From positions 1-64,000 of the forward strand of contig NZ_FOAI01000007.1 in NCBI RefSeq assembly GCF_900109705.1: a stretch of 64,000 nt of DNA. Direction: 5' to 3'. The notes beneath the pieces are model-generated. The model was not told the origin of the DNA, did not search any database, and saw nothing but the letters and a program-made list of their open reading frames with translations. Both the position numbers and the translations under genes were made by a program. This document shows positions 47,797-49,162 of this stretch, piece by piece. Source of the stretch: Roseivivax marinus (lineage in GTDB: Bacteria; Pseudomonadota; Alphaproteobacteria; Rhodobacterales; Rhodobacteraceae). How positions within the stretch are numbered: position 1 is the first letter of the stretch; the number at the start of each line of letters is the position of its first letter.

Positions 47797-48426
47797 ATGA
47801 CCCGCGCCCATATCCCCGGCATTCTCGCGATGGCGATCGTCGTCGTCGCCTCGAACATCCTCGTGCAGTTCCTCCTCGGCCAGTGGCTGACATGGGGGGC
47901 CTTCACCTACCCGATCGCGTTCCTCGTCACCGACGTGATGAACCGTGTCTACGGCCCCGGCCCCGCCCGCAAGGTGGTGATCGCAGGCTTCGTCGTGGGT
48001 GTCGTCTGCTCGTTCATCGGCACGCAGATCATGGGCGAGTTCGGCCCTCTGGTGACCTTCCGCATCGCGCTGGCCTCGGGCGCGGCGTTCCTGACCGCGC
48101 AGCTTCTGGACGTGGCCATCTTCGACAGCCTCCGTGGTGGCCGCTGGTGGCGTGCGCCGCTGGCCTCGACGCTGGTCGGATCGTCGGTCGATACCGCGAT
48201 CTTCTTCACCGTGGCGTTCTCGGGCGCGCTGACCTTTCTCGAGCCGTCGAACGATGTGAGCTGGGCCGGCGAAGCGCTGCCGCTTCTGGGGGTCGGGCCG
48301 ACCGTGCCGCTCTGGGTGTCGCTGGGCTTTGCGGACTGGCTGGTAAAGCTGTCGCTGGCGCTGCTGGCGCTGGTGCCGTTCCGTGTGATCGTCTCTTGGG
48401 CACAATCCCGGCAAATCGCGGCCTGA
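47797..48426 (+). CDS. yhhQ: queuosine precursor transporter, VUT/YhhQ family (DUF165)
   Basis: The 209-residue membrane protein has six predicted helices and the DUF165 pattern (ASNILVQFLLGQWLTWGAFTYP, FLVTDVMNRVYGPGPARKVV, SSVDTAIFFTVAFSG). Members take up queuosine precursors such as preQ0 and preQ1. The leader immediately before the ATG can form a preQ1-like pseudoknot that covers the ribosome-binding site, which agrees with this role. The next gene downstream is the short ORF with the very strong Shine-Dalgarno sequence. Confidence 0.88.
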   Translation: MTRAHIPGILAMAIVVVASNILVQFLLGQWLTWGAFTYPIAFLVTDVMNRVYGPGPARKVVIAGFVVGVVCSFIGTQIMGEFGPLVTFRIALASGAAFLTAQLLDVAIFDSLRGGRWWRAPLASTLVGSSVDTAIFFTVAFSGALTFLEPSNDVSWAGEALPLLGVGPTVPLWVSLGFADWLVKLSLALLALVPFRVIVSWAQSRQIAA

Positions 48427-48489
48427 GCACGAATCTTCATTTGACGACAAGGAATTCCGTGCCAACCTCAAACTTGCGTTTTCAACAGC

Positions 48490-48505
48490 AGAAAGGAGGT
48501 GATCC
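48490..48505 (+). promoter_or_regulatory. 16-nt perfect anti-16S Shine-Dalgarno sequence
   Basis: AGAAAGGAGGTGATCC is the full complement of the alphaproteobacterial 16S rRNA 3' end (GGATCACCTCCTTTCT), far longer than any other ribosome-binding site in the window. It ends one base before a GTG codon. A CCTCCT segment with a nearby GATC, 114 nt further on (48610-48623), could pair back to it. Confidence 0.85.
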
Positions 48506-48506
48506 A

Positions 48507-48563
48507 GTGTCGAGAGAAGCATTGGAGAAAGGTGTCGGAACAGCATGGAGGATTGCCGGCTAG
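48507..48563 (+). CDS. 18-residue ORF behind the extended Shine-Dalgarno
   Basis: GTG at 48507 opens MSREALEKGVGTAWRIAG and stops at TAG. The start lies one base from a 16-nt perfect Shine-Dalgarno, which makes translation very likely if the RNA is made. No family was recognised. It could be a leader peptide, a sensor of initiation or ribosome state, or merely the translated part of a small regulatory RNA. A terminator follows at 48634, giving a self-contained unit between yhhQ and arfB. Confidence 0.55.
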   Translation: MSREALEKGVGTAWRIAG

Positions 48564-48609
48564 GGCAGCCCCTGACCGGATAATGGTCCATGTTGGCGGA
48601 TGTCTAACC

Positions 48610-48623
48610 GATCCCCGCCTCCT
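48610..48623 (+). other. anti-Shine-Dalgarno-like segment downstream of the 18-codon ORF
   Basis: GATCCCCGCCTCCT resembles the 16S 3' tail (GGATCACCTCCT). CCTCCT (48618-48623) can pair with AGGAGG at 48494-48499, and GATC (48610-48613) with GATC at 48501-48504. The pairing would enclose the ORF and hide its ribosome-binding site. Confidence 0.5.
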
Positions 48624-48633
48624 AATTCTCGAA

Positions 48634-48664
48634 GGGTCGCCCATGCTCCGGGCGGCCCTTTTCA
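48634..48664 (+). terminator. intrinsic terminator after the 18-codon ORF
   Basis: GGGTCGCCC (48634-48642) pairs with GGGCGGCCC (48650-48658), including one G-U pair, and is followed directly by TTTT. It is the clearest rho-independent terminator in the window and lies 76 nt before arfB. Confidence 0.85.
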
Positions 48665-48739
48665 TTTTCACCGTGCCCGGCGCGTCGCGGTGTCGTGGCA
48701 TCTGGCCAGAGAGCCGGGGCCGGACTAGGGTCCACCGCC

Positions 48740-49162
48740 ATGACGCTGCGCATCAATCACGCCATCGCCCTCGAGGACTGGGAAATCACCGAGCAGTTCG
48801 TGCGGTCCTCGGGGCCGGGCGGGCAGAACGTGAACAAGGTCTCGACCGCGGTCGAGCTGCGCTTCGAGGCCGAGCGGTCGCCGAACCTGCCGGGCCCGGT
48901 CAAGGCGCGGCTGCGGCGGCTGGCCGGTCGACGCGGGACCAAGGACGGCGCGCTGATCCTGCAGGTGGACGACACCCGCAGCCAGGCGCGCAACCGTGAG
49001 ATCGCCCGGGACCGGCTGGCCGAGCTTGTGGCCAAGGCCTTGGAAAAGCCCAAGCGGCGCATTCCCACCAAGCCTACCCTGGGCTCCAAGCGGCGGCGGA
49101 TCGAGGGGAAGAAGGCGCGCGGGCAGGTGAAGGCGCTGCGCGGAAAGGTCGACCCGGACTGA
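48740..49162 (+). CDS. arfB: alternative ribosome-rescue factor ArfB (YaeJ)
   Basis: The 140-residue peptidyl-tRNA hydrolase has the release-factor catalytic loop GGQ (residues 27-29, SSGPGGQNVNKV). Its basic C-terminal tail (TKPTLGSKRRRIEGKKARGQ) enters the empty mRNA channel. ArfB frees ribosomes stalled on non-stop messages. It lies behind the short unit at 48.49-48.66 kb and is convergent with the MarR gene (15 nt apart). Confidence 0.95.
   Translation: MTLRINHAIALEDWEITEQFVRSSGPGGQNVNKVSTAVELRFEAERSPNLPGPVKARLRRLAGRRGTKDGALILQVDDTRSQARNREIARDRLAELVAKALEKPKRRIPTKPTLGSKRRRIEGKKARGQVKALRGKVDPD

Follow-up and report, generated by a model that had tools for sequence, protein, structure and literature searches.

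The window, by which we mean the whole 64,000-nucleotide stretch of Roseivivax marinus DNA analyzed here, carries a short intergenic element flanked by the genes of a Vut_1 transporter (PF02592) and of an ArfB-like protein (PF00472). The element, at about 48475-48664 on the + strand and about 190 nt long, looks like an independent RNA with an intrinsic terminator of its own. At 48490-48505 stands AGAAAGGAGGTGATCC, followed by an A at 48506, a GTG at 48507 and an in-frame TAG at 48561-48563; the open reading frame (ORF) so delimited would encode the peptide (V/M)SREALEKGVGTAWRIAG. Read on the opposite strand, the 16S 3' end of four other class genomes is AGAAAGGAGGTGATCCAG, and the match of the window RNA to this complement covers 18 nt, the G of the start codon included. 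An earlier note on this DNA, made from the letters alone, had pointed to a 16-nt complement of the 16S tail, a GTG one base later and an 18-codon ORF; all are where it placed them, and the complementarity proves to be even longer. A pattern scan found the 13-mer AAAGGAGGTGATC only once in the draft genome of the window (4.0 Mb), where the same pattern reveals no 16S 3' end. The features discussed below, all on the + strand, are the following.

48441..48468 (+), putative promoter: TTGACG (48441-48446) and, after a 16-nt spacer, CAACCT (48463-48468) with TGC before it
48475..48664 (+), proposed transcript, a divergent CC2171-like RNA, from the RF01867 match and the fold (z -3.71); putative 5' end
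48490..48507 (+), extended Shine-Dalgarno (SD) sequence, 18-nt complement of the 16S 3' end; core present in relatives
48495..48501 (+), P1 5' strand, GGAGGUG of the SD, pairing with 48616-48622; consensus 6 bp, 98% of cells paired, one-sided changes only
48503..48526 (+), P2 hairpin UCCAGUGUC/AGCAUUGGA covering the start codon; paired in 91% of cells, double changes at 4 pairs
48507..48563 (+), ORF of 18 codons, GTG start and TAG stop; exactly 18 codons in 112/117 family sequences
48531..48538 (+), P1b 5' strand, pairing with 48608-48615 in 89% of cells; double changes at 6 pairs
48543..48593 (+), P3, formed by 48543-48549 and 48587-48593 around the stop-codon hairpin; paired in 72% of cells, its 6-bp part with 106 double-change cells
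48562..48573 (+), P4b hairpin AGGG-CAGC-CCCU; 83% paired, 3 pairs with double changes
48616..48622 (+), P1 3' strand CGCCUCC (consensus CRYCUCC), internal anti-SD; from the alignment and the complement count
48631..48664 (+), intrinsic terminator; double changes in 10/10 pairs of the main stem across 109 aligned relatives
48740..49162 (+), arfB-like gene with an RF-1 domain (PF00472, E 4.1e-21), perhaps a separate transcription unit; TAGGGT 8 nt before its ATG

The terminator that the earlier note had called clear is indeed so: 48631-48661 is the sole terminator-like site in 48400-48760 (shuffle mean 0.5). The predicted fold of 48475-48664 (-82.8 kcal/mol) is more stable than all 200 of 200 shuffled sequences. 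A scan of 48400-48760 for the sigma-70 consensus gave no site; a loose TTG[ACG][ACG] hexamer starts 60 to 24 nt before the SD in 52/57 loci, a count made without shuffle control, and TGNCANNNT is, by eye, common in the putative promoter region of the relatives.

Distribution of the Element

Relatives of this element are numerous. The sequence AAAGGAGGTGATCCAGTGT was found in 22/61 relatives and the exact pattern AAAGGAGGTGATCCANTGTC in 36/387 genomes, a sample that spans the class. R1, a model built on the window's form, matched 105/120 genomes of the window's family, with one match each, and gave no match in the other 15; from the named relatives with the same form we infer this family to be the Rhodobacteraceae. 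Seven of the matched genomes (L234, L238, L240, L242, L243, L246, and L247) score below 41 bits, and each has the SD core and an 18-codon ORF, with peptides and flanks that differ; in L240 the CUCC segment is, by eye, missing. R1 and a second model, R2, were built on RNAalifold structures, but their alignments misplace some CUCC columns, so that they act mostly as sequence profiles. A raw R2 tally of 145/387 class genomes was discarded, many of its matches being 33 nt long at 25.9 bits; four that were fetched are antisense 16S ends. Counted by hand, 36 genomes with the exact pattern and 31 with matches of at least 60 bits, 16 of them shared, make 51, and since one of these (G337) has an ORF of 56 codons, related loci are put at at least 50 of the 387. 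Named genomes yielded at least 119 stretches, for example from Bosea, Bradyrhizobium, Methylobacterium, Brevundimonas, Ruegeria, and Falsiroseomonas.

The architecture recurs together with the complement. Among 157 distinct pattern occurrences, 153 precede ORFs of 14-33 codons, and a strong terminator follows 135 of the 155 that could be used under a longer key and a flank rule (134 of the 135 served for accessibility). For the window's form, 126 loci were loaded and 117 distinct sequences kept; 57 of the 126 came from the pattern plus a VS[RG]..[LV]E prefix, 41 from the model and the rest from loci L203-L232, admitted only with AAAGGAGG at the expected place. Hence the invariance of AAAGGAGG is partly one of ascertainment, the loci having been found by pattern or by a model that gives it weight. 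The fold alignment used 109 of these sequences, the energetics 111 and the complement count 116. In divergent forms the 16S complementarity shrinks to about GAAAGGAGGTG.

That this is a self-contained unit, as the earlier note had proposed, is borne out by the R1 matches and by the joint conservation of ORF, fold and terminator. The same note had suggested looking in relatives for the two complementary segments and for the peptide: both segments are conserved and the peptide is not. Nor are the extended sequence and the ORF absent from close relatives, where both are kept. Such conservation argues against a chance occurrence.

Some loci depart from the common pattern. At about 1500 in L143 and L144, and at about 300-450 in L290 and L291, the same extended SD stands before ORFs of 55-58 codons that resemble small exported proteins; G399, a genome with such an ORF, also has a typical micro-ORF copy (L187). 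In a different family (f13), the four ORFs read (L273, L274, L277, and L278) all have exactly 18 codons, with peptides MSHGS..RSV. Most genomes have one strong model match; G392 has two, of 69.4 and 69.1 bits (L200 and G392:C24:326940-327081). In one genome (L195, 1692-1788) the element is closely followed by a gene for the bacterial small SRP RNA.

Relation to CC2171

CC2171, a small RNA that received its name in Caulobacter first, is typed by Rfam as an sRNA gene (RF01867). The earlier reading had omitted this family, and the relation is an addition to it. The RF01867 model aligns to 48483-48659 over its entire length (model positions 1-159 of 159, E 1.2e-6), with a score of 37.8 bits that lies under the 75-bit gathering score; 8/18 tested class loci pass that score. 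Of 10 family-form loci, 7 match at E<=0.004 (30.5-43.2 bits), L234 reaches only 19.9 bits (E 1.5), and no match at E<=5 was listed for L244 or L247. As a control, four stretches of antisense 16S ends with the same 18-mer were searched, and none of the four matched at E<=5. Judged by its sequence, the window RNA is a divergent relative of CC2171, and we do not file it as a member of RF01867.

The two share the block of SD and start, the position of the terminator and the size, but the CC2171 helix CAUUGUC/GACAAUG is absent from the window RNA, where CRYCUCC closes the SD instead. This helix, between the segments after the start and before the terminator, can pair at each position in 42-45 of the 49 sequences of the VSH/VSD group, which come from Rhizobiales, Caulobacterales, Acetobacteraceae and others. 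An RNA of Mesorhizobium huakuii, MH_s33, is annotated as RF01867 and belongs to a set of 35 predicted sRNAs, 34 of which, MH_s6 being the exception, have RNA-seq products according to the portion of the report available (PMC5596092). Only indirectly, through this annotated RNA, is transcription of the CC2171 family indicated (PMC5596092). The portions covered of the literature on CC2171 and RF01867, PMC5596092 and PMC11701678 included, nowhere mention an ORF in the RNA, nor did they yield a function for it.

A Reading Frame Whose Length Is Kept

Among the 117 distinct family-form sequences the ORF has 18 codons in 112, 20 codons in four and 12 codons in one, and it starts with GTG in 103, ATG in 11 and TTG in three. 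When loci were fetched by the model without an ORF filter, 36/41 again had 18 codons. Codon 19 is TAG in 55, TGA in 38, TAA in 19, a sense codon in five and TGG in none; if the second and third letters were independent among the 112, and ignoring shared ancestry, about 19 TGG would be expected. The earlier note had considered an extremely strong mini-message, and it is this fixed stop, written with all three stop codons and never as TGG, that supports translation. All 117 sequences contain AAAGGAGGTG, with a G before it in 103, in part because the loci were found through it. CARNC lies within 22 nt of the stop in 110/117, a frequency for which no shuffle control was made. In the four 20-codon sequences (L241, L249, L257, and L271) codon 19 is a sense codon, an in-frame stop follows two codons later and the usual hairpin after the stop looks lost or changed.

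The Bradyrhizobium type is shorter: its 11 ORFs, selected through the end of their peptide, are 14 codons long and stop at TAG (five), TGA (three) or TAA (three). An in-frame stop precedes the terminator in 79/79 of the other loci with a strong terminator, vs 57 and 53 for the other two frames; the corresponding counts for the window's form are 56/56 in frame and 49 and 52 out of frame.

The amino acids are another matter. Across 200 close pairs, codons with a single change are synonymous/nonsynonymous in the ratio 186/428 in frame and 218/388 and 164/512 out of frame; the frame is thus no better than the other two, and these pairs gave no sign of purifying selection on amino acids. Entropy is 0.96, 0.98, and 0.99 at the three codon positions, and divergent members keep 18 codons with peptides that look unrelated. 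Without synonymous bias in frame, the peptide is not visibly selected. From these alignments, translation of a fixed length looks selected and the peptide does not, and comparison shows the element of the window's family to be a real micro-RNA gene, conserved and structured, that is probably translated.

The Fold and Its Limits

In the consensus fold of the 109 aligned sequences, GGAGGU of the SD pairs with RYCUCC in 98% of cells, and UCCAGUGUC pairs over the start codon with a segment ending in UUGGA in 91%. The remaining helices have many double changes and pair in 66-89% of cells (P3 in 72%, P4a in 66%); one hairpin with a CARC-like loop, P4b, overlaps the stop codon (48561-48563) with its 5' arm. 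Overall there are 379 double-change cells, vs a shuffle mean of 157 and maximum of 199, and 87% of cells pair, vs 35-58% once the 3' partners are shifted by 1-3 columns; the alignment that gave the fold also served for counting the pairs, and the counts ignore shared ancestry. P1, the SD/anti-SD helix, has no double changes, the SD being invariant, and its support is one-sided and positional.

That support comes mainly from a count of complements. Between stop and terminator, 106/116 family-form sequences carry a full complement of GGAGGTG, vs 681/2320 shuffled ones (29%), and so do 7/49, 3/18, and 1/11 sequences of the other groups. The earlier note had read GATC-CCCG-CCTCCT, located at 48610-48623, as a mimic of the 16S tail that can fold back on the ribosome-binding site. 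The CRYCUCC part is conserved and the GATC is not conserved in the aligned relatives, so that an exact mimic is not supported; the fold-back is supported for the window's family, but the VSH/VSD forms from other orders lack it, and the switch is therefore not class-wide.

Predicted accessibilities agree with this division. In the 18-codon loci the unpaired probability of GGAGG is 0.01 vs 0.29 in shuffles, and SD and start are predicted to be closed in 57/57 of them, L069 from outside the family included. The Bradyrhizobium start is likewise predicted to be closed (0.00 vs 0.37), the SD and start of the VSH/VSD group to be more open than in shuffles, and the remaining loci to resemble shuffles, with 6/17 below them. 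A pairing of the segments after the start and before the terminator, as in CC2171, was weak in Rhodobacterales, with 15.6 when matched, 14.8 when shuffled and 13.2 across clades, and gave way there to the consensus fold; it held in the VSH/VSD group (20.2 vs 15.8).

In the window, the predicted cost of opening the SD and its flank is 11.7 kcal/mol; pairing with a 16S tail of 15 nt is predicted to yield -25.5, which leaves a net of -13.8 kcal/mol. The mean predicted cost and yield are 10.3 and -24.3 kcal/mol in 111 family-form sequences, vs 5.1 and -25.4 in 49 VSH/VSD sequences. On general values, a short SD would probably not pay the opening cost, and hence the unusual length of the SD may match the lock.

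The arfB Neighborhood

An arfB gene lies within 700 nt downstream in 93/117 family-form sequences and on the same strand within 3.5 kb in 50/56 loci. Over 45 measured loci the gap from terminator to arfB has a median of 37 nt, and arfB starts no more than 40 nt away in 27 of them. TANNNT stands 5-9 nt before the arfB start in 26/93, vs a mean of 3.9 and at most 11 in shuffles; this suggests that in some relatives arfB has a transcript of its own, perhaps a leaderless one.

Outside the window's form the downstream gene is on the + strand in 49 loci and on the - strand in 48, these 97 including one (L111) that is a Rhodobacter form with arfB. Of 95 downstream and 95 upstream proteins in these other forms, 82 and 77, respectively, were scanned, and no family dominated. 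RNase R and RF3, both named by reading the sequence, were rejected as common neighbors, a cold-shock domain being found in only 4/82 downstream proteins and a GTPase domain in only 4/77 upstream ones. With gene orientation even and neighbors varied, arfB was also rejected as a general partner outside the window's family. The earlier note had thought that the proximity of a ribosome-rescue gene might not be chance; as a general link this fails, arfB being frequent only in the window's family, and by gene order the link is local synteny, though within this family it may also be functional.

Discussion

The reading that we favor, at somewhat less than an even chance, is that of a free-standing, CC2171-like small RNA gene that is also a micro-mRNA, gated by the ribosome and responding to initiation capacity. 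In its closed fold, which is conserved, CRYCUCC near the 3' end pairs with the SD, one hairpin covers the start codon and another overlaps the stop codon; weak contacts would be rejected by this fold. The exceptionally long SD would let the 16S tail of a free 30S subunit invade and open the fold, after which a ribosome would read 18 codons and stop. The reading itself, not the peptide, would switch the RNA between closed and open and so expose CRYCUCC and the junction, and the RNA would in this way respond to initiation capacity. The output may be the stability of the RNA itself, pairing with other RNAs, perhaps by the exposed anti-SD, or the holding of 30S subunits; we found no output or target of the window RNA. 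The idea of a 30S sensor is compatible with the predicted energetics. A broader proposal is possible but doubtful: a widespread alphaproteobacterial RNA made to be read would sense or buffer free 30S subunits by its perfect complement of the 16S tail, its micro-ORF would keep its length, and not for the sake of the peptide, since a ribosome has to run to a defined point and halt there, and in the window's family the internal anti-SD would be a lock that only the full-length SD duplex opens.

Several other explanations compete with this one. An ordinary non-coding CC2171-like sRNA, acting by base-pairing and bearing an ORF and SD that are accidental or merely protect the RNA, would fit the Rfam typing, the unconserved peptide and the strong, conserved structure. 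It would not explain why codon 19 is a stop in 112/117 sequences, as TAG, TGA or TAA and never TGG, or why a stop precedes the terminator in frame in all 79 other loci, more often than in the other frames; we consider it unlikely, though worth keeping in mind. A functional 18-residue small protein could account for the conserved start and stop and for the VSRxxLExGVGT shared by many members, but the lack of an in-frame synonymous excess, the similar entropy of the codon positions and the 18-codon ORFs with quite different peptides already disfavor it and leave it little probability. The 18-nt identity might speak for an antisense copy of the 16S 3' end that arose by chance or was misplaced; this is already refuted by conservation and has next to no likelihood: ORF, fold and terminator are conserved around the 18-mer in the whole family, and the four antisense 16S ends fail to match the Rfam model.

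The close arfB gene raises the thought of a leader or attenuator: by being translated, the ORF would control how far transcription passes the terminator into the ribosome-rescue gene. Frequent proximity, common strand and, in 27 of 45 loci, a start within 40 nt of the terminator would suit it, but the even orientation and the lack of a recurrent family among the 82 downstream proteins elsewhere, and a -10-like box before arfB that is commoner than in shuffles make it rather improbable; in the consensus fold of 109 sequences no antiterminator pairing was seen. Pairing of the CCCUU after the stop with a terminator arm, considered by eye as an antiterminator, was dropped. The RNA might also be a sponge that uses its perfect SD to capture anti-SD sRNAs with CCUCC loops, translation only regulating access; small RNAs of the alpha-R8 type (SisA-D) presumably carry such loops. 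The more open SD of the VSH/VSD forms would agree with a sponge, and Caulobacter offers a precedent in CrfA, a sponge RNA described, in the portion of the report available, as acting on the four alpha-R8 sRNAs SisA-D (PMC12559287). But the RNA of the window's family closes its SD in cis, and the conserved complementarity to the 16S tail extends beyond CCUCC, so that we give a sponge only a small chance.

The ribosome-gated reading may be set beside known systems. Leaders of the trpL type are ribosome-mediated transcription attenuators and share with the window's family a short ORF, a strong SD, a terminator and a close downstream gene; they differ in that relatives of the window RNA elsewhere have downstream genes of even orientation, in that no antiterminator was seen and in that the ORF of the window is without a run of one codon. 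The hok mRNA is inhibited by a fold-back in which, as in the window RNA, a segment near the 3' end pairs with the region of the translation start, but the peptides of the window's form are variable and, in the members read by eye, look polar and not hydrophobic. Pos19 of Rhodobacter sphaeroides reportedly has a longer and distinct ORF. It is a coding small RNA of 219 nt from the same bacterial family as the window, compared here by its description in the available portion of the source (PMC5036791).

What is unusual here is that length looks selected and the peptide does not, in an ORF tied to a complement of the 16S tail; the parent family of the RNA is already catalogued. To our knowledge, it is an open question by what means bacteria measure their free ribosomes. 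A usually single-copy RNA with the complement of the 16S tail and an ORF selected for length, not for sequence, would be a directly testable candidate for a ribosome gauge, and it is carried by culturable genera such as Ruegeria, Brevundimonas, and Methylobacterium. Even if the sensor reading fails, the CC2171 family would gain a coding half and a wider range.
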